DNA of 32,135 bases from Desulfurococcales archaeon. Lineage in GTDB: Archaea; Thermoproteota; Thermoprotei_A; Sulfolobales; Acidilobaceae. The notes beneath the pieces are model-generated. The model was given only the letters and a program-made list of their open reading frames with translations, was not told the origin of the DNA and ran no database searches. Both the position numbers and the translations under genes were made by a program. The stretch is from NCBI GenBank assembly GCA_015521115.1, contig WAOT01000002.1, positions 1 through 32,135 of the forward strand, given 5' to 3'. Positions 6,578-21,240 of the stretch are shown here, in pieces; the stretch's first letter is position 1; each line of letters begins with the position of its first letter.

Positions 6578-6593
6578 GGGGGTCTCCGCCCCC
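6578..6593 (-). terminator. GC hairpin at the end of the kinase gene
   Basis: On the minus strand GGGGG (6593-6589), loop CGGAGA and CCCCC (6582-6578) form a 5-bp stem that begins in the kinase stop codon. It is followed by an AT-rich run. It could terminate or protect the kinase transcript and insulate it from the ABC operon. The stem is short, so this is tentative. Confidence 0.35.
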
Positions 6594-8758
6594 TAATCTA
6601 GCGACCTGCTTCCCTCCTGGAGCCTCTCGAGTATTAGGTCTACGCTCCTCCACCTCTCCTCCTTCCTCTTCCTTAAGCACTTCATTATGAGCTGGTCAAG
6701 CCACTCCGGGATGCCCGGGTTCAGACTGCTTGGCGGTGGGGGCTCAGAATTTACGATCTTATATGCTAGTGCTAGGGGGTTATCCGCTATGAACGGTGGC
6801 TGGCCTGTCAGCATCTCATATAGTAGTGCCCCCAACTGCCATATGTCAGTTCTCCAGTCCGGCATCCCGAAGGTTGCAGGGTCTATTTGCTCCGGTGCGG
6901 CGTATAGTAGGGTTCCCTTGAAGCCTGTCGATCCCGTTGTAGAGGCTTGGAGGAGAACCTTTGCGAGGCCGAAGTCTGTCAGCTTCGCCCTGCCCTCCCC
7001 GTCGAAGAGTATGTTCTCGGGCTTTATGTCTCGGTGCACTACCCCCATGTGGTGGGCGTAGCTTAGGGCCTCCCCGACGTCCCTTGCTATCTTAATTGCC
7101 TCCTTGAGGCCGAGCCTACCCCTTTCGGTAAGGACTCTCCTCAGGCTACCCCCCTCCATGAGCTCCATTGCGATATACGGTATAGGGGCGACCCCATAGT
7201 CAATAACCCTCACAATATTGGGGTGGTTGAGCTTGCTCCACGTCTCAGCCTCCCTCTTGAAGGTCTCTATCAGGCTCCCCGATAGCGTTGAGCCCAGCTC
7301 TATCCTCGGGATCTTGAGAGCCACCTTCTCGCCCGTGTCCTCCTTGACCGCTAGGTAGACTGTGCTGAACCCGCCACTACCGAGGCGCTTTATTATCTTG
7401 TAACCGCTAACAGGTAACTCCTCGCTAATGGGCGCCACTACAGGCTGGGGTGCCGGAGGCCCCTCCTCCCTCTTACGGGCCGGCCCGGGTGTGGGCGGCT
7501 CCTCCACCCGCTCAACTGGGGGCTTCTCCCCCTTGGGGGCTGGCTCGACCTGTACTCTGAGGCGTGTTGACACTTTCAGCGGGTCTGCGGTAATTGAGAC
7601 GACATAGGGGCCCTTCAGATCCTCCCCGGCCCTAATGGTGAACGTGTGACTGCCTTCACCCTCTACGCTCACCTCAAGGGGCTCCACCATTAGGCCACGT
7701 GGAGTTGTTACTCGGAGAGTGCACTGCTGGGGGCAGCTATACTCGACTCTGAAGCTACCAGCATCTCCCTGCTTGAGTTTTAGGATGGAGGGTGAGACTA
7801 GGATCTTGGCTGAGGATACAGGCCTATACACGCCTTCAGACCCCCGCCCGGAAGGGGAGGGCGGTGGTGCTGGGGGCCGGGGAGCATGTAGGCTAGACCC
7901 GCCAGCGGATCGTTTCTTATAGAGGAGGTATGCTGGTGCGCCGATCACTAATGCTAGGAAGACTAGGCCTAGTATAGCGGAGCCAGTACCCAGTTTTTCA
8001 GAGCTTGTAGTCCCGCTAGGTGGCTGTGGTGGTGGTTGCGGTGGGGGCGAGGAATATGATGTGCCGTTTCCTCCATGTGTTGGTATTGAGATGTTTGGGC
8101 GCTCGAAGGATATTTGAGAATATATAGTTAGCCCCAGGAACGTCCTGTACTCAGGGCTGTAGAGGAGGAGCACGTCCTCCGCTTTAGACCCGTTTATCCA
8201 CTCGGATAGCAGGATCTGGTAAGCCTTGTACCTCCCCCAGACATCTACCGGCCCGTATACTGCGACCTCTGTGGGCAGCGTTATGCTAGTGCTGTTACCT
8301 AGGTTGTCTCTGATATAAAACGTCGTGTACATCGAGGTGTTCGTATATATTGGGGGCCAGCTGTTACTGAGATTCGCTAGGTCGCTGAGGTTTAGAGGGA
8401 TTGGGGGGCTCATGAGGACATGTATCTCATAGCCCCCTGGATAGTAATATGAGAGTGAGTGTAGATTGCCCAGTCCGTCTATAATCAGCTCGACTGATAA
8501 TGTGCCGCCGGATGTCGTGTTAGCAAGGAATGAGACGGAGACACACTCTCCAGCAGCGCCAGCGCATGTTGCACTAGGGCTGACCTTAAGCCTTCCCCCT
8601 GTGTAGCTATAGTTGTAGCCTGCTAGGTCGCTCACATTAGTGTATACGACGTCTACGTCCGGGTTTATCCATGAGGGTATGGCCTGCACCGTCTGGGGTA
8701 GTAGGGATAGGGCTATTAGTGTGTAAAGGAGTACCGCAATAATAGTAGTATTCTTCAA
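6593..8758 (-). CDS. Receptor-like membrane Ser/Thr protein kinase, 721 aa
   Basis: TTG 8758 is preferred as start because GAGGTGG ends 5 bases before it, and it gives a clean signal peptide (MKNTTIIAVLLYTL... ending PQTVQA). Residues ~30-235 are an extracytoplasmic Tyr/Ser/Asn-rich domain with many glycosylation sequons. A Pro-rich spacer leads to a transmembrane helix at ~259-280 followed by YKKR. Residues ~315-405 look like an Ig-like beta domain, then a Pro-rich linker. The kinase domain spans ~453-716: glycine loop GSGGFSTVY, VALK Lys482, HRDIKPEN with catalytic Asp577, DFG 595-597, the APE segment and DIWQLGALLYEML. All catalytic residues are present. It directly follows an FHA gene, whose product probably binds its phosphothreonines. 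The domain order resembles bacterial PknB-type receptors with the ends reversed. Confidence 0.93.
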   Translation of the reverse strand: MKNTTIIAVLLYTLIALSLLPQTVQAIPSWINPDVDVVYTNVSDLAGYNYSYTGGRLKVSPSATCAGAAGECVSVSFLANTTSGGTLSVELIIDGLGNLHSLSYYYPGGYEIHVLMSPPIPLNLSDLANLSNSWPPIYTNTSMYTTFYIRDNLGNSTSITLPTEVAVYGPVDVWGRYKAYQILLSEWINGSKAEDVLLLYSPEYRTFLGLTIYSQISFERPNISIPTHGGNGTSYSSPPPQPPPQPPSGTTSSEKLGTGSAILGLVFLALVIGAPAYLLYKKRSAGGSSLHAPRPPAPPPSPSGRGSEGVYRPVSSAKILVSPSILKLKQGDAGSFRVEYSCPQQCTLRVTTPRGLMVEPLEVSVEGEGSHTFTIRAGEDLKGPYVVSITADPLKVSTRLRVQVEPAPKGEKPPVERVEEPPTPGPARKREEGPPAPQPVVAPISEELPVSGYKIIKRLGSGGFSTVYLAVKEDTGEKVALKIPRIELGSTLSGSLIETFKREAETWSKLNHPNIVRVIDYGVAPIPYIAMELMEGGSLRRVLTERGRLGLKEAIKIARDVGEALSYAHHMGVVHRDIKPENILFDGEGRAKLTDFGLAKVLLQASTTGSTGFKGTLLYAAPEQIDPATFGMPDWRTDIWQLGALLYEMLTGQPPFIADNPLALAYKIVNSEPPPPSSLNPGIPEWLDQLIMKCLRKRKEERWRSVDLILERLQEGSRSLD

Positions 8759-8770
8759 TGGAACCACCTC

Positions 8771-11093: not shown

Positions 11094-13067
11094 CTAGGCC
11101 GCCTCCTTGTAGACGAAGATGAGCTCTCCCTTCTCCACCTTCACCTTACCCACCCCCTCCTTCTGGAGCTTCTCAACAGCCGCTCTAACAGCCTTGGGGG
11201 ACATACCGGTCTTTTTAACGAGCTCTTTCAGGCGGAAGTGGGGCAGTGCTGGTGAGCGTGCTAGTGCCTCGTATTTCAGCTCCTTGATCTTGAGGGCAGC
11301 CTTCTCTATCTCCTCCAACGGTGTTAAGGGCCTCAATACCGCGGCGAACCTCTCGACAACAGGATCTGCTGGGTGATGGTATACCTCACCTGTTAGAGGA
11401 TCGAAGAGTATTAGTGTGAGGCTACTCGATAGGAACATCCTGTGGAAGTCTGTCCCCGCCACGTACTCCTGCAGTTTTCTCGTAAACCCTGTCGGGCTCA
11501 TCACCATTAGGACGTGATAGTAGCCGTTGTTCCTTGCCTCCATAGCCCTCTGGCTGGCGAGTGATAGGGCTTCGCCAAGCTTCATGGGCTCGAGGTCGTA
11601 CCCCTCCCTCTCATACCTCTCAGGCCTCACGAACGATAGGGCCTCTATGACTAGCCTCCTCCTCTTCCTCAAGACCCCCTCGTAGACTATGTACCTCGAG
11701 AACCTCCCCTTAGGCCCGCTACTGTCCGGGTGGAGTGCTCCCTCCTCGATGTTAGCCTTACCCCAGCTCTTTATCTTGACCTCCTTCCTACTCAGGGGGT
11801 CGTAGAGGGTTAGGGGGAGCCTGTTCATGTGGTAGTTGAACCTCTCAATGAACACGCTCTCATAGCCTAGGGCGTCCTCGAAGCTGGCAGGCCTCTCCTC
11901 ACTCTCACCCTTTATGGCTGACTCCAGCTCTCCCAGCTTAGCCTCAAGCGTCTGCTTCTCTGCCTCAAGGGCCTCCTTGGCCGTCGAGTACTCTCTAAGC
12001 ATGTTCTCGAGTTCCGCGATCCTTGACTTGAGCCTCTCGGCCTCAGCCTCAAGGGCCTCCTTAGCGGCCTTGTCCTGGCTGTACTGTTGTGTTAGCTGCT
12101 CCAGCTCTTTCCTCTTCTCCTCCAGCTCCTTGCGGGCCTTCTCGAGATCCTCCTCGACACGGCCCAGCTTGGACTGTAGCTCCTCGATACGGGATGCCAG
12201 CTCCTCCTTATCCCTCCTCAGGTAGTCGAGCTCCATGAGGATCTTCTCCTTCTCGACCTCCCTTGCTGCCAGGGCAGCACTCAGCTCTTCAACCCTCTGG
12301 AGGAGGGACTGCCTCTCCTCCTCTAGCACCTCGACCTGCCTCTCCAGCTCCGGTAGCCCGAGCTCTTTCTCTACCTTCTCGCGGATCTCCTTCTCAATCC
12401 TCTCCCTCAGCTCCGCACTCTCGAGCAGGGCCTTCTCATAGTCTGTGAAAAGCCTGAGGAGCCATGCGGGCTGCTGGTCTAGGAGCCTCTTCACGGCCTC
12501 GACAATGTTCTTGAACCTCCTCGAGTAGCGGGCTTGGAGGGCCTTGCTGACTGTAGCCCTAATCTTACCCTGTGTAGTCCACGTCTTTATGAGGCCTGAG
12601 AAGTCCACGTACTGCTTCCTCACGGCCTCGGCCACTAGGTCATATATCTCGCCGCTCCTCGAAACCAGGAGGTCTGCTAGCCTGTCTGGAGGAGTCACCT
12701 CGGGGTCTAGCTTGTTGAACCTCTCAAACTCCCTTAGGATCTCGATCTCGTCCTCAGTGAACATGGACATGATCTGCTTGGCGACGGGGTCTTCCGTCTT
12801 TTTACCTTTAAGGGCCGCAGCGATCTTGAGGAGCGCCCCATTAATGATACTGTTTATCTCGTCATACTCCTCCTTGCTCAGCGCCCGGAAGCACTTCCTG
12901 CGGAACTCCACCATCGTCTTCATAAGCTTTTGGGCGTCATCTAGTATTATGAAGTCCGGCAGGCTCTCTAGGCTTAGGAGATCCTCGCTCTCGAATATCC
13001 TGCGCGCGTCACTCACGAGGTCGTCGACGCACTCCCGGTAAAGGCTACTGGACTCCAATCCGACCAC
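11094..13067 (-). CDS. Long coiled-coil protein with C-terminal winged helix, 657 aa
   Basis: Residues 1-210 are helical and globular. Residues ~212-388 form a long, highly charged coiled coil with near-repeating blocks (AAKEALEAEAERL and TAKEALEAEKQTL). Residues ~395-580 are a mixed alpha/beta domain of unknown type (RLVIEALSFVRPERY, YYHVLMVMSPTGFTRKLQEY, TLILFDPLTGEVYHHP). Residues ~608-655 look like a winged helix-turn-helix (RLKELVKKTGMSPKAVRAAVEKL). No membrane segment is present. The start is GTG 13067 or TTG 13058. It heads the operon with the membrane-anchored coiled-coil gene and diverges from the K+ channel. SMC- or Rad50-like ATPase motifs are absent, so it is not an SMC protein. 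The winged helix could bind DNA or act as a protein-interaction module. Confidence 0.82.
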   Translation of the reverse strand: MVGLESSSLYRECVDDLVSDARRIFESEDLLSLESLPDFIILDDAQKLMKTMVEFRRKCFRALSKEEYDEINSIINGALLKIAAALKGKKTEDPVAKQIMSMFTEDEIEILREFERFNKLDPEVTPPDRLADLLVSRSGEIYDLVAEAVRKQYVDFSGLIKTWTTQGKIRATVSKALQARYSRRFKNIVEAVKRLLDQQPAWLLRLFTDYEKALLESAELRERIEKEIREKVEKELGLPELERQVEVLEEERQSLLQRVEELSAALAAREVEKEKILMELDYLRRDKEELASRIEELQSKLGRVEEDLEKARKELEEKRKELEQLTQQYSQDKAAKEALEAEAERLKSRIAELENMLREYSTAKEALEAEKQTLEAKLGELESAIKGESEERPASFEDALGYESVFIERFNYHMNRLPLTLYDPLSRKEVKIKSWGKANIEEGALHPDSSGPKGRFSRYIVYEGVLRKRRRLVIEALSFVRPERYEREGYDLEPMKLGEALSLASQRAMEARNNGYYHVLMVMSPTGFTRKLQEYVAGTDFHRMFLSSSLTLILFDPLTGEVYHHPADPVVERFAAVLRPLTPLEEIEKAALKIKELKYEALARSPALPHFRLKELVKKTGMSPKAVRAAVEKLQKEGVGKVKVEKGELIFVYKEAA

Positions 13068-16203: not shown

Positions 16204-16536
16204 TTACTGCCCCAGCCTCTCCCTTACCTTCTGGATGAGGCCCCTGATCCTCTCCCTTATGCTGTGGATGTTCATTGCCTGGTAGTAGTAGCCTTCCCTG
16301 ACTAGCATTGTGGAGGCTATCTCCTCTACCAGTCTTTTAAGGTCTCGGGCCTCCTCAGCGAGGTCGTCCTCGCTCGCGAGGACTAGTACCCGGCCGAGCT
16401 CGTGGAGAGCGTCTTGGAGCTCTCCTCTCTTTATCCTCTTGTTGATACTTGGTAGCATCTCTTCAATCTCATCGGCAAGGATCAGTGCCCACTTCGCTAT
16501 CGCCTTACCGTACCAGTTGTTACTAGTTGAGGGCAA
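16204..16536 (-). CDS. Small helical hypothetical protein, 110 aa
   Basis: I do not recognise it. The frame stays open far upstream, to 16998, but that extension overlaps the helicase start and is low-complexity, so I placed the start at TTG 16536 behind GGGGAG. A TATA box CTTATAAG (16577-16584) is correctly spaced for it. The product is helical: AIAKWALILADEIEEMLPSI, LQDALHELGRVLVLA, EEARDLKRLVEEIASTML, RERIRGLIQKVRERL. There are no membrane segments. It sits divergently beside the membrane-tethered helicase gene, which may or may not be meaningful. A start at ATG 16596 or 16587 would add 20 or 17 residues. Confidence 0.6.
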   Translation of the reverse strand: MPSTSNNWYGKAIAKWALILADEIEEMLPSINKRIKRGELQDALHELGRVLVLASEDDLAEEARDLKRLVEEIASTMLVREGYYYQAMNIHSIRERIRGLIQKVRERLGQ

Positions 16537-16576
16537 TTCGGGTCTCCCCAAATTAGTATCTTCATGGCCGCTACAT

Positions 16577-16584
16577 CTTATAAG
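16577..16584 (-). promoter_or_regulatory. TATA box for the small helical gene
   Basis: The palindromic CTTATAAG, read on the minus strand, predicts initiation near 16554, about 18 bases before the TTG start and just upstream of GGGGAG. This is the main argument against the longer reading frame. Confidence 0.5.
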
Positions 16585-16721
16585 CATTGCTAACATATTC
16601 AGCCTGTCGCAGGGTGGGTGAAGGGTGGGTTCGGATCCTGCCAGAGTCCACACCCGAGAGGCTCCTTCGGCCCATGGAATTCTCCACATCCCCACCCAGT
16701 GGGTTGAATGTAGGGTCTTCA

Positions 16722-16733
16722 GCAGTATTATTA
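16722..16733 (+). promoter_or_regulatory. TATA-like box for the helicase gene
   Basis: GCAGTATTATTA lies ~45 bases before the GTG start and predicts a transcript start near 16755 with GAGGGA (16761-16766) as the ribosome site. The remaining 16597-16721 stretch shows nothing that I can support as a gene. Confidence 0.4.
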
Positions 16734-16774
16734 GGAGGAGGTAGCACCTGGGAGTGTCGTGAGGGAATGGCCCG

Positions 16775-19700
16775 GTGGCCCCGCCCATAATGCTATTTGC
16801 ACTAATATCAGTACTGGCCGCTCTACTCCTAATCGTGACTCTCGGCATAGCACTCCTCCCCCGCCGGGGCGGCATAATTTGGGGCCTCACCCGGCTGCCT
16901 GGCGTGGAATGGTTGGCGTTCCGGGGGCTCATCAGGAGGCTCGAAAGGGGCGGGGGTGGAGGTGCTGCGCTGAGAGAGTGCGCCCTGAGGTGCTCCAAGG
17001 GCAGGGTGCACTATATATTTAACATGATGTTAAGCAGGGGCCTCTGCCCCAACGTGGGCGCCGTAGAGGCAGCCGTGGAGAGGGGTCTTGCGGGGGAGGC
17101 CTCCAGGGTCTATACGGTTGGTTGCCGTTATGAGGGTGCCATGGACAGGCTGCTTGAGACAGTCGCAGCGTTCTATGGCGGGCTCAGGATAAACCCTGGT
17201 GACCTAGTCATAGCGGTTTGCGACAGCTCTAGCGGGGTTCCCGTACTGGAGGTCGGTGGTAAGAGGTATTCTGGTGACATCCTACCCGAGAGGATGAGGA
17301 AAGAGGTGGAGGGGATCCCGGGTATCGGGGTATATAGTAGGAGGGGGGCTGTTGTATTATCATACGGTTGTCCTGGGGCCCCGTACCGTATTGAGATCCT
17401 AGCCCTCCAGGTTCTACCCGAGAGTGCTAACGACCTTGAAAGCCTGTCATACCATCTGGCCGTTAAACGCGGGCAGGGAGGGGACGTGGTTGAGCTTGTC
17501 AAGACTATCGCTAGGAGGCTCGCCTGGCTGGCGGAAAAACTACCAGTAGAGGCCAGACCGCCGGAGGCTGCCGCCGTGTTATTCACACTTGGGAGCGAGC
17601 CGGTTGAGTGTCCCTCGAATAAGATCTTAACAGACTCGCCACGGCTCGCATGCCCATACTATTCACCCTACAGGGTAGCCGGTAGAGTCGAGAGGTTAAG
17701 CGGGAGGCTGGCGTCGGTGGCGGCCTCCCTACAGGCTAGGGGTGGGAACCCTTGGAGGGCTGTGGTCAACCTTGAGATGAACGGGTGGGGTAGTGTTGCG
17801 AGGGCACTAGTCCCCCTCATAGGTACCGCTAGCGAGGGATCCCGGCATATTCTCCAGGTCGAGCCATGGTACCTCAATTGTTCGGGTATTAGAAGGGTTG
17901 ATAGGATCTCGTGTGTTAGGCCCTCAATAGACTGCTCAAGCTGGTGGGGGCCGGGGCCCGTTGAGGAGGCGGCAATGCGCCTCGGGTTTAAGGTTGAGAT
18001 GCCGGACTGCATGAGGAGGAAGGTTAGGCTCCATATTGAGAGGGTTGAAGGGGAGGCCAGTATAGTTGAGCTGGAGGGGGATGATGTTCCAGGACTTATT
18101 GCGGCTGCCACCGTGGAGGGGGCTGATGAGTATGACCTCATCGTTACCCCTAACGATACAGCTGCCGACACTTTCACCTCCATACTACAGGGTGTCAGGG
18201 TAATCCCGTGGTGGAGGTTTGAGCTGGAGCCATGGAGGGCGAAGGGGCGAGTCCTCCTAGTCCTACCGGAGAGGTTCCCTAAACCCCGGTGGCTGTCCCG
18301 CCTAGCATCCGAGAACCCGCGCTCCTTCTTGGAGGCGGCTATTGCTAGAGTTGTGCAACTCTCCTCTAAACCTGGCTACACGGCTATAAGCCCAGCCCTC
18401 CAGGCCAGCGGCCTCCCAGTTAGGGTAGCCAAGAAGGTCTCAACACCGCGTGAAATACCGGTTACTAGTGGTGTGCTGAGGGAGGCTGAGGCCCTCCTTA
18501 GACAGTACTGGGGGCCTAACTACACCCTACACCGCCACCAGGCGGTTGCCATAGAGGCGCTATACCGTGCCTGGTGGCCGAGGCCTGGTAGGCCCGTAAT
18601 GGCTGTATTCCCCACTGGCAGCGGTAAGAGTGCAGTCTTCCAGATCGGGGGGCTCATAATCTCGGGCCTACACGGTGGCCCTGTCCTGGTTGTAAGCCCA
18701 TTGAGGGCGCTGATAAGAGACCAGGTTGAGGGCCTCACCAGGAGGGGGTTGGCTGCTGCGAGGATAGATGCGACAGTTTCGGGGGAGAGGAGGAGGGCCG
18801 TACTCGAGGCGGCCTCCCTCGGCCTCCTGGACTTCCTCTACGTCACCCCGGAGAGGTTCTCTGACCCCGCATTCACCCTTACAATAGCGAGCAGCCCGCC
18901 CAGCCTCGTAGTCCTCGACGAGGCCCACACGGTGGCGAAGTGGGGTGCCAGCTTCAGGCCCTCATACCTTCATGCTGCCCGTTTCATATCGGATCTCAGA
19001 GGCGCCCCAGGTGCCCCCCATCTAGCACTGTTCACAGCTAGCGCCCCGGGGGAGATAGCTAGGATGGTTCTCGAGGCTGTTGGGGTTAAGAGCGGTGTGC
19101 TTGAGGTCAACCTTGATGGTGGCACCCCACCTCCTGACGGGTGGAAGGGGCTGATACTGAGGCTTCCCACTGTAAGGTCTAACCTACGCTTCGCAGTACT
19201 GCCCGTTGGGAGAGGTGAGGAGAGGCTTCCACCACTATACAGGGTCATGAGGGAGCTCCGAGAATGGGCGGATACCGTCTCCAAGCCATGGCTTGGTGTA
19301 GTGTTTACTGGGTATGTGAAGAGTGAGAGGCACCCCTGGGCTAACGCGGAGGCGCTCGCCGAGAGCATATCTAGGATGGCGGGCCTCGAGGCCATAGCAT
19401 ACCACGGGCAACTACTACAGAATGAGAGGAGGAGAAGGGAGGATCTCATATATGAGGCCAGCGAGACGGGCAAGGGGCCGAAGGTCGTCGTAGCCACAAA
19501 GGCGTTCGGTATGGGTGTAGATATACCGAACGTGAGGTGGATAGTCCATGTCATGCCTAGCGATAGCGTAGAGGACTACTATCAAGAAGCTGGTAGAGCG
19601 GGGAGGGACGGTCTACCAAGCGTTGCACTACACCTTTACAACCCGCTGGACTTCAAGGAGAAGGAGAGACTTCTAAAGTCTCAGAGAGTCCTCCCCAGCG

Positions 19701-20785
19701 TGGTACTACAAGTCTACAACACCATAATCCTCCTCCACGAGAGCCTGAGGAGGAAGACGGGCGGCTGGCCAACTATAGTAGTCCCGCTGGAACTGTTCCC
19801 CTCGAAGGTGCGGGCGCTCAGGGCGGTAGATATCCTACGCTCCCTAGGCCTCGTTGACTACTGGGTTACAACGACTAGGCTCCAGGGGTATCGCATCCCC
19901 AAGAGTCTTGAGAGCGCTGGTCTGACACCAGGGGAGTACATCCTACCCTGGAGTATGGCTGTCAGCGGTGACACGGTGATAGGGCCACGCCTCTCCAAGA
20001 CGCCGGCAGGCTGGCTTCCTGGCAATGCCCGCTACTACCGCTGCAGGAATGCTGTTGGAGGAGCTCCCCCTCACATGCCTGTAAGAGTAGAGGTACTAGG
20101 AGTGGACGTCAACAGTGGTGCATGTGGAGAGTGGGAGGAGGTCAATTTTGAGAGGGGGGAGATCCTCGTCCTCATGCCCAGCCTGGAAGTCCAGCATAGA
20201 CCCCTCCAAGTACTCGACGAGGACGCCTTCCAGGCCGTTATACGGCTCTCAACCCTAGAACTGGAGGGGATTAGGAGGTATTCACAACTACTCTCAGCGG
20301 CCTCAAAGATAGCGTCTGAGAAGGGGTGGATGTCTGACGAGGTAGACCAGCTCCTGAAGACGGGGATCGACGAGATACTCTCAAGCCCCCCAAAACTTGT
20401 CAGCGGGGACGCTCCGAGGGAGGTTTTCGGCCTCAAGAGGGTATGCCCCCAGCTCTCAGACTGCATGCCCGAAGTATTTGAAACTATAGACAAGGCATCG
20501 AAATGGCTGGGGGGACAGGAGGCCGTAACTGTAGCAGTACAGGATGAGGGAGTAGAGAACAGGATCTCGAAGAGGCTGACCCTTCACTTCGGGGAGCCCT
20601 TTAAAGGGGCGTTCGGCGTTAGAGCCTATAGGTCTGTACTGGCTGCCGCTAGGTCAGGGCACTATAAGCTTATGGATAGGGGGTTTATTGTGATAATAGC
20701 TAGAGCTAACAAGAGGACTATTAATGCTCTAAGGAGGTTAGAGGGATACCCCTACTATAGCCTATTCCTCTACAACACGGGCTAG
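16775..20785 (+). CDS. Giant membrane-anchored RecQ-like SF2 helicase, 1336 aa
   Basis: GTG 16775 follows GAGGGA with 8-base spacing. Residues ~5-28 form one hydrophobic segment (IMLFALISVLAALLLIVTLG) followed by PRRGG, so the rest should be a cytoplasmic body tethered to the membrane. Residues ~30-560 match nothing I recognise and carry many Cys, Trp and Arg residues. The helicase core is complete: motif I FPTGSGKSA with Lys618, motif Ia VVSPLRALIRDQV, motif II DEAH at 715-718, motif III FTASAP, motif V KAFGMGVDIPNVR and motif VI QEAGRAGRDG from Gln937. These spacings and the QEAGRAGRDG box are RecQ-type. The C-terminal ~370 residues are of unknown fold; RecQ zinc-binding and HRDC domains are not evident. 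It is more than twice the size of a typical RecQ. The stop overlaps the PadR gene by 4 bases. DpdF-type defence helicases are an alternative relation, but no other dpd genes are present. Confidence 0.9.
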   Translation: MAPPIMLFALISVLAALLLIVTLGIALLPRRGGIIWGLTRLPGVEWLAFRGLIRRLERGGGGGAALRECALRCSKGRVHYIFNMMLSRGLCPNVGAVEAAVERGLAGEASRVYTVGCRYEGAMDRLLETVAAFYGGLRINPGDLVIAVCDSSSGVPVLEVGGKRYSGDILPERMRKEVEGIPGIGVYSRRGAVVLSYGCPGAPYRIEILALQVLPESANDLESLSYHLAVKRGQGGDVVELVKTIARRLAWLAEKLPVEARPPEAAAVLFTLGSEPVECPSNKILTDSPRLACPYYSPYRVAGRVERLSGRLASVAASLQARGGNPWRAVVNLEMNGWGSVARALVPLIGTASEGSRHILQVEPWYLNCSGIRRVDRISCVRPSIDCSSWWGPGPVEEAAMRLGFKVEMPDCMRRKVRLHIERVEGEASIVELEGDDVPGLIAAATVEGADEYDLIVTPNDTAADTFTSILQGVRVIPWWRFELEPWRAKGRVLLVLPERFPKPRWLSRLASENPRSFLEAAIARVVQLSSKPGYTAISPALQASGLPVRVAKKVSTPREIPVTSGVLREAEALLRQYWGPNYTLHRHQAVAIEALYRAWWPRPGRPVMAVFPTGSGKSAVFQIGGLIISGLHGGPVLVVSPLRALIRDQVEGLTRRGLAAARIDATVSGERRRAVLEAASLGLLDFLYVTPERFSDPAFTLTIASSPPSLVVLDEAHTVAKWGASFRPSYLHAARFISDLRGAPGAPHLALFTASAPGEIARMVLEAVGVKSGVLEVNLDGGTPPPDGWKGLILRLPTVRSNLRFAVLPVGRGEERLPPLYRVMRELREWADTVSKPWLGVVFTGYVKSERHPWANAEALAESISRMAGLEAIAYHGQLLQNERRRREDLIYEASETGKGPKVVVATKAFGMGVDIPNVRWIVHVMPSDSVEDYYQEAGRAGRDGLPSVALHLYNPLDFKEKERLLKSQRVLPSVVLQVYNTIILLHESLRRKTGGWPTIVVPLELFPSKVRALRAVDILRSLGLVDYWVTTTRLQGYRIPKSLESAGLTPGEYILPWSMAVSGDTVIGPRLSKTPAGWLPGNARYYRCRNAVGGAPPHMPVRVEVLGVDVNSGACGEWEEVNFERGEILVLMPSLEVQHRPLQVLDEDAFQAVIRLSTLELEGIRRYSQLLSAASKIASEKGWMSDEVDQLLKTGIDEILSSPPKLVSGDAPREVFGLKRVCPQLSDCMPEVFETIDKASKWLGGQEAVTVAVQDEGVENRISKRLTLHFGEPFKGAFGVRAYRSVLAAARSGHYKLMDRGFIVIIARANKRTINALRRLEGYPYYSLFLYNTG

Positions 20786-21240
20786 CCGCACTTGTCCGCC
20801 ATGCACTCCTCGAGCCTCTTAACTTCATCCCTCACGACCCTGCATATTTCATCGGCGGGCTCCTTGAGGCCCTTCTCGCGGAGGATCTTAGAGCCCTCTA
20901 TGAGCATCCACTCGACGAACCTCAGCTTAACCTTAGCCTTATCCACAAGGATATCGGCTAGAGTCTTCCACCCCTTCTCTGTGAGGCCGTAAACCACCCT
21001 CTTACCCCCCCTCACACCTGTCTCCACGACCTCAACGACCTCTATTAGTCCCTCCTCCTTCATCGACTCGAGGAGAGGATATATTGTCCCAGCGGCCTTC
21101 CTCCACCTACCCATAGTCACCTCCTCAATCCTCTTCATAATGTCATAGCCGTGCCGTGGGCCCTCGGCTAGGATCCTGAGAATAACGCTCTTAAGAGACT
21201 CACGGTAGATTGCAGCAGCTCCAGACTTTTCACGCTTCAA
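20782..21240 (-). CDS. PadR-family transcriptional regulator, 152 aa
   Basis: The N-terminal winged helix is classic PadR: LKSVILRILAEGPRHGYDIMKRIEEVT, then KAAGTIYPLLESMKEEGLIEVVE and GGKRVVYGLTEKGWKTL. Residues ~95-150 form the C-terminal dimerisation helices, with two cysteines near the end (EECMADKCG). PadR proteins are ligand-responsive repressors, often of exporters or stress genes. The start is TTG 21240 after GGTAAGG. It converges with the helicase and overlaps it by 4 bases. Its own target cannot be read from sequence. Confidence 0.9.
   Translation of the reverse strand: MKREKSGAAAIYRESLKSVILRILAEGPRHGYDIMKRIEEVTMGRWRKAAGTIYPLLESMKEEGLIEVVEVVETGVRGGKRVVYGLTEKGWKTLADILVDKAKVKLRFVEWMLIEGSKILREKGLKEPADEICRVVRDEVKRLEECMADKCG

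Follow-up and report, generated by a model that had tools for sequence, protein, structure and literature searches.

A predicted membrane-anchored RecQ-type helicase with a probably degenerate exonuclease domain in a family of archaea

Introduction

The coupling of an exonuclease and a RecQ helicase on one polypeptide chain is best known from WRN, the human Werner syndrome helicase-exonuclease. DinG of Bacillus subtilis likewise combines an N-terminal DEDD exonuclease with a DNA helicase; it is reported to degrade single-stranded DNA (ssDNA) in the 3'-5' direction and to have a link to replication stress (PMC12525004). Here, we analyzed a 32,135-nucleotide stretch of DNA, hereafter the window, from a Desulfurococcales archaeon (GenBank assembly GCA_015521115.1, contig WAOT01000002.1, positions 1 to 32,135 of the forward strand). 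An open reading frame (ORF) in it, at 16775-20785, encodes a giant RecQ-like helicase that an earlier note on this DNA had described as membrane-tethered.

Our analysis suggests that the gene product is a family-specific archaeal RecQ-type helicase that a single N-terminal helix holds at the cytoplasmic face of the membrane, that belongs to a clade in which the members outside the family are exonuclease-helicase fusions, and in which the exonuclease domain has lost its catalytic residues. We assign this reading a probability of approximately 0.6. The family, which consists of heat-loving archaea and is represented by 48 genomes, is probably the Acidilobaceae.

The helicase gene and its RecQ-type core

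The genome holds the helicase gene as a single copy, and the strand opposite to its frame is riddled with stops. The gene and the two lobes of its motor are as follows:

16775..20785, + strand: gene for a RecQ-like helicase of 1336 aa with a predicted membrane anchor, GTG start at 16775 and stop at 20783-20785 (open frame; single copy; most genera of the family have a full-length relative)
18488..19144, + strand: RecQ-type RecA1 lobe, residues 572-790, with the Q motif, Walker A (18611-18631), DEAH and the aromatic loop (Pfam DEAD, 2.4e-21; RecQ structures in the PDB matched by sequence at 1e-43; invariant columns)
19145..19639, + strand: RecQ-type RecA2 lobe, residues 791-955 (Pfam Helicase_C, 7.8e-17; TKAFGMGVDIPN and QEAGRAGRD near-invariant)

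The only in-frame starts ahead of the N-terminal hydrophobic segment are GTG at 16775 and ATG at 16790. A start upstream of the segment appears credible because 17 of 28 full-length relatives have the same kind of segment, with a differing sequence, directly behind their start. A true start behind the segment had been considered earlier as a possible objection, and no such alternative was favored. Upstream of the gene lies a divergent ORF (16204-16998, - strand) with no Pfam match, the TTG start of which overlaps the 5' end of the helicase gene; the real start of this ORF is therefore probably nearer 16590.

The motifs of a superfamily 2 (SF2) helicase of the RecQ type were all intact, in agreement with the earlier note. 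These included PTGSGKS (residues 613-619), SPLRALIRDQV, TPERF, FTASAP, VVATKAFGMGVDIPNVRW, YYQEAGRAGRDG, and LDEAHTVAKWGASFRPSY (residues 714-731), which contains DEAH and the RecQ aromatic loop. Both the SF2 motifs and the aromatic-rich loop after DEAH are conserved across the relatives. The NCBIfam RecQ model TIGR01389 also matched (5e-65), at 220 bits with its curated cut-off of 640 not reached. The RecQ zinc-binding module was not detected, as residues 950-1085 contain no cysteine and Pfam RecQ_Zn_bind gave no match. Overall, the computations support that the core motor is of the RecQ type. A scan of the named genomes for relatives returned bacterial RecQs only.

A relative of the C-terminal flank was found in 45 of the 48 genomes of the family; completeness is 55-77% in the three that lack it. 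Beyond the family but within the order, the genome searches, which scored a limited number of candidates per genome, recovered one complete relative (in genome G181) and one decayed copy (G093); a weak partial match to the C-terminal profile in G184 was not a helicase. The helicase tree follows the genera, indicating vertical inheritance of a core gene. Searches of viral contigs, phages, and plasmids recovered RecQ cores only and no full-length relative, and an origin from a virus or plasmid was rejected on this basis.

Relatives with an intact exonuclease

Three sporadic relatives were identified outside the family, of which two are intact: P0002 (L073:728-4831, G181) and P0003 (L091:7439-11983, G434). 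From their sequences, both are predicted to consist of a membrane helix, a complete DEDDh 3'-5' exonuclease, and a RecQ core. The exonuclease motifs are LALDVET, GHNITKYD, and HVPDED in P0002 and DIET, GHNVYFHD, and HDPVED in P0003. The five catalytic residues (D111, E113, D173, H221, and D226 in P0002) are all conserved in P0003 and precede the RecQ core in both proteins, as in a WRN-like fusion. RNase_T matched P0002 above the cut-off (9.4e-7); for P0003, RNase_T (6e-4) and DNApol_Exo (2e-5) both remained below it.

In a tree of 46 helicase cores, 24 of which are bacterial and viral RecQs, the family, P0002, and P0003 formed one clade apart from those 24 (support 100/98), within which P0002 and P0003 together were sister to the family (support 89/69). 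It is probable that the family helicase was derived from an exonuclease-helicase fusion. The third outside relative, L105 (G093), is an exonuclease-RecQ-type copy in decay, interrupted by several frameshifts and stops, which points to loss of the gene beyond the main family.

The N-terminal flank

The earlier note had left approximately 530 residues before and 370 residues after the core without an assignment. Neither flank matched Pfam or PDB sequences, whether searched singly or across 28-33 relatives, and no known soluble helicase family, another objection that had been foreseen, was matched by them. An AlphaFold2 model of residues 40-570 reached a predicted local distance difference test (pLDDT) score of 88. 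The flank contains the following parts:

16892..17194, + strand: helical linker, residues 40-140 (helices only in the model)
17195..17554, + strand: DEDDh (DnaQ-like) exonuclease domain, probably degenerate, spanning approximately residues 141-260 and devoid of catalytic motifs (modelled element order; hhalign ranks; motif scan of 28 members)
17555..18055, + strand: middle N-terminal region, residues 261-427, with the motifs TD.PR, QVEPW, and DC (conservation; no family or structure match)
18056..18454, + strand: small alpha/beta domain, residues 428-560, with an invariant PE (kept in short members; weak Foldseek matches)

In the model, residues 144-254 follow the element order of the DnaQ fold (beta-beta-beta-alpha-alpha-beta-alpha-alpha-alpha). 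The exonuclease motifs DxE...HxxxxD and HN..D were absent from all 28 members, and the window protein, one of them, has no DEDDh domain with five catalytic residues before its RecQ core. A profile of the family flank was compared by hhalign with 188 proteins, in which all proteins other than P0002 and P0003 were unrelated and length-matched. The exonuclease flanks of the two relatives ranked first and second, with scores of 30.3 and 26.5 (next, 24.6) over 197 and 181 aligned columns, and the best score in 100 column shuffles was 20.6, compared with 30.3. With plain hmmsearch, the exonuclease relatives ranked 1 and 7 of about 1230 with non-significant E-values, and decoys were not separated. 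Separation from length-matched decoys was thus achieved by rank with hhalign and not by E-value with plain hmmsearch. These profile and model data suggest that the N-terminal flank is probably a catalytically dead exonuclease with further domains.

Foldseek matched RecA/RAD51 and viral helicase lobes weakly, over approximately 150 columns somewhere within the N-terminal model, and residues 428-560 could possibly be a RecA-like lobe without a P-loop. A viral fold search of the flank returned no match with an E-value below 0.001. Matches to the flank profile were confined to the family, with no free-standing copy. Three short members of one genus (g6), namely L039 (G009), L037 (G028), and L041 (G035), are 816-904 aa long; they no longer carry the helix or the greater part of the N-terminal flank but retain the small alpha/beta domain before the helicase.

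The membrane helix

16787..16843, + strand: predicted single N-terminal membrane helix, residues 5-23 (hydropathy; flanking charge; recurrence in relatives)

The Kyte-Doolittle hydropathy of this segment was 3.01 over 19 residues and did not exceed 1.54 elsewhere in the protein, and the charge was 0 before and +3 after the segment. A hydrophobic helix with a positive-inside flank is characteristic of an integral membrane protein, and a single helix with the bulk of the helicase in the cytoplasm is predicted. The hydrophobic segment on which the earlier description was built is therefore present.

Helices were counted among the 28 members in which the N-terminal flank is complete or nearly so, with the three short members kept separate. 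The helix was present in 17 and absent in 11; five of the 17 are weaker (hydropathy 1.5-2.0, mostly alanine-rich), and the net charge after the segment ranges from +2 to +7 in every helix-positive member. The helix-less members include those that we take to be Aeropyrum. P0002 and P0003 both carry the helix, followed by charges of +4 and +6, respectively. Because these two serve as the outgroup, the helix is most simply regarded as ancestral, which it probably is in the family, and at least four changes have occurred on the tree. The 11 full-length members without the helix imply that the core function cannot depend on membrane tethering. The helix is thus a real feature, yet a dispensable one: the tethering proposed earlier is supported by the sequence, by 17 relatives, and by both outside relatives, but does not extend to these 11 members.

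Proposed function

In the proposed mechanism, the N-terminal helix would hold the helicase at the cytoplasmic face of the membrane, and the anchor may raise its local concentration at the site where DNA segregates or arrives by cell-cell exchange. There, the ATP-driven RecQ motor, with a 3'-5' polarity presumed by analogy with RecQ, would unwind or remodel DNA ends, flaps, or branched intermediates. The exonuclease domain, having lost its catalytic residues, most likely survives as a platform for binding DNA or a partner and could grip the 3' strand during unwinding. The product would be ssDNA for recombination, and our best guess is that the protein processes DNA ends or ssDNA for recombination at the inner face of the membrane.

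Several observations weigh against a membrane-held helicase with a dead exonuclease. The hhalign E-values were 0.0055-0.0088, and one unrelated protein scored 27.6 in a first, less strictly matched control set. When searched by Foldseek against the PDB, neither flank gave a match at E < 0.001, and the DnaQ fold was absent among the best 50; it is consequently the sequence profile and the strand order that carry the dead-exonuclease assignment. The assemblies of G181, G434, and G093 are fragmented, and mis-binning is possible for their short exonuclease-RecQ contigs, which span 4.3-20.7 kb. Moreover, the anchor is missing from 11 full-length members and most of the N-terminal flank from three short ones, and the neighboring genes give no hint of recombination or DNA import.

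Some of these points would suit an ordinary soluble-type RecQ for genome maintenance, in which the helix is lineage-specific and unimportant and the N-terminal domain is new and unrelated to exonucleases. The loss or change of the anchor at least four times, the vertical inheritance as a core gene, and the lacking DnaQ fold match are consistent with such a protein. However, 17 of the 28 full-length members have kept the helix although they have diverged strongly, both intact outside relatives have it as well, and the flank profile places the exonuclease relatives 1 and 2 of 188. The soluble-type explanation is therefore considered rather unlikely.

The helicase could also act in DNA import by pulling, separating, or protecting DNA delivered at the membrane by a Ced-type conjugation apparatus. 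A predicted membrane anchor with a cytoplasmic motor agrees with this role, and Aeropyrum pernix has a Ced DNA-exchange pilus, the cargo of which is probably ssDNA (PMC9905601). However, no import gene was recognized beside the helicase in 33 loci, in which only some neighbor clusters were identified. The Aeropyrum-like members lack the helix, so that an import role is not favored despite the pilus, and Ced genes are described in Sulfolobales (PMC11868833), a group outside the family in which no close relative of the helicase was found. We regard this role as improbable.

A broader proposal can be made tentatively, and it is itself doubtful: exonuclease-RecQ machines with a membrane anchor may form a new class in archaea that processes DNA at the membrane, for example DNA taken up from other cells. 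Such machines would have been ancestrally active like WRN and would have given rise, in one whole family, to a core helicase with a non-catalytic exonuclease domain for DNA handling. If true, a membrane-fixed helicase as a family core gene raises the question of which DNA step happens at the archaeal membrane.

The C-terminal flank

19637..19909, + strand: helical hairpin and winged-helix-like part, residues 955-1045, with no RecQ zinc module (AlphaFold2; common to outside relatives)
19910..20782, + strand: beta-rich, helical, and alpha/beta segments, residues 1046-1336 (AlphaFold2 secondary structure; cysteine conservation; no fold match in the PDB)

The AlphaFold2 model of this flank (pLDDT 93) begins with helices and a winged-helix-like part, continues with a beta-rich part and a helical hairpin, and closes with an alpha/beta segment. 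The winged-helix-like pattern follows the core in the model, while Pfam RQC gave no match; this part is common to P0002 (profile E-value, 1.8e-11) and P0003 (0.0012). A PDB fold search of the flank found no match with an E-value below 0.001. Cysteines 1090, 1117, 1224, and 1230 are near-invariant; a displaced metal site is one possibility for them, disulphides another. For the last 120 residues, a resemblance to phosphoribosyltransferases was considered, but Pfam gave nothing and no claim is made.

Genomic neighborhood

20782..21240, - strand: gene for a PadR-family regulator, arranged tail-to-tail with that of the helicase and overlapping it by 4 bp (Pfam PadR, 2e-19; convergent pairing in 13 genomes)

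The convergent PadR-helicase pair adjoins in these 13 genomes, lies nearby in 3 more, has undergone three changes on the tree, and is kept in many genera. The regulator had been suggested to control the helicase. The PadR gene is real and adjacent and its pairing is conserved, but tail-to-tail genes share no promoter, and control of the helicase was not borne out. The other neighbors of the helicase are a mix of metabolic and housekeeping genes. From reading their sequences, the genes upstream of the helicase in Caldisphaera/Acidilobus-like genomes resemble Gar1 and TFB, and other genomes have a divergent gene for a DUF457-like membrane protein and a V-ATPase subunit I-like gene after PadR.

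The earlier note had also raised anti-virus surveillance, with a relation to DpdF and an association with defence genes. PADLOC DpdF models matched the helicase core at 229 bits, and the exonuclease relatives occur sporadically, like mobile defence genes. However, plain RecQ scored about equally (220 bits), and the DpdF equivalog NF041063 matched the helicase core only, at 127.5 bits with a cut-off of 550. With only the core matched and a score far below this cut-off, membership in DpdF was rejected. PADLOC, including its dpd models, found no defence match in the seven ORFs neighboring the helicase in the window, and a defence island was rejected for this reason and because the helicase is a core gene in 45 of 48 genomes. 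Vertical inheritance, metabolic and housekeeping neighbors, and the absence of an adjoining defence gene all speak against surveillance, and a role as a defence helicase with ties to DpdF or a comparable system is very improbable. Nearly every genome of the family contains Hel308 and NurA; the helicase thus replaces neither, and its interpretation as a substitute for a missing helicase or nuclease was rejected.

Further genes of the window were observed. P0004 (22940-24232, + strand, 430 aa) carries the N-terminal domains of CDC48 in residues 31-209 (TIGR01243, 79.8 bits). The segment behind them, where the AAA ATPase would be expected, shows no evident Walker motif, and the sequence suggests a CDC48-type pseudo-ATPase or an adaptor. 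In one run of minus-strand genes, a 724-aa protein (6593-8767) combines a long unassigned N-terminal half with a C-terminal eukaryote-like Ser/Thr kinase domain (PknB-type, 279 bits), and a 657-aa coiled-coil protein (11094-13067) shows weak similarity to archaea-specific SMC-related protein (ASRP) and Rad50.

Comparison with known systems

In the open literature searched, no description of such a protein was found, although subscription papers could describe one. DpdF, of the 7-deazaguanine DNA modification system, resembles the window protein in that the RecQ-like core matches DpdF models, but the flanks are unmatched, the equivalog score is 127 against 550, and no dpd genes were seen around the helicase. 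Giant RecQ proteins of approximately 1600-1760 residues also occur in viral contigs as RecQ-UvrD fusions, in which the partner is a UvrD helicase and no exonuclease was matched; L112, L117, and L139 carry such fusions of about 1700 residues. The helicase of DinG is XPD-like rather than RecQ, and no mention of a membrane helix was found for it (PMC12525004).

Bacterial RecQ (TIGR01389) shares with the window protein all helicase motifs, including the aromatic-rich loop, and, going by the model, a winged-helix-like part after the core, whereas the window protein has no zinc-binding or HRDC match, large flanks, a predicted membrane helix, and a score of 220 bits against 640. P0002 and P0003 have the domain order of WRN, namely a DEDDh 3'-5' exonuclease, a RecQ core, and a winged-helix-like part on one chain. 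They differ from WRN in the predicted membrane helix, in approximately 350-450 extra residues between exonuclease and helicase, in having no RecQ zinc module, and in being archaeal; the family of the window protein differs further in that its exonuclease is probably dead. The membrane-anchored archaeal versions would therefore be another case of exonuclease-RecQ coupling, in which active and apparently dead exonucleases form a natural set for testing the role of this domain apart from cutting.

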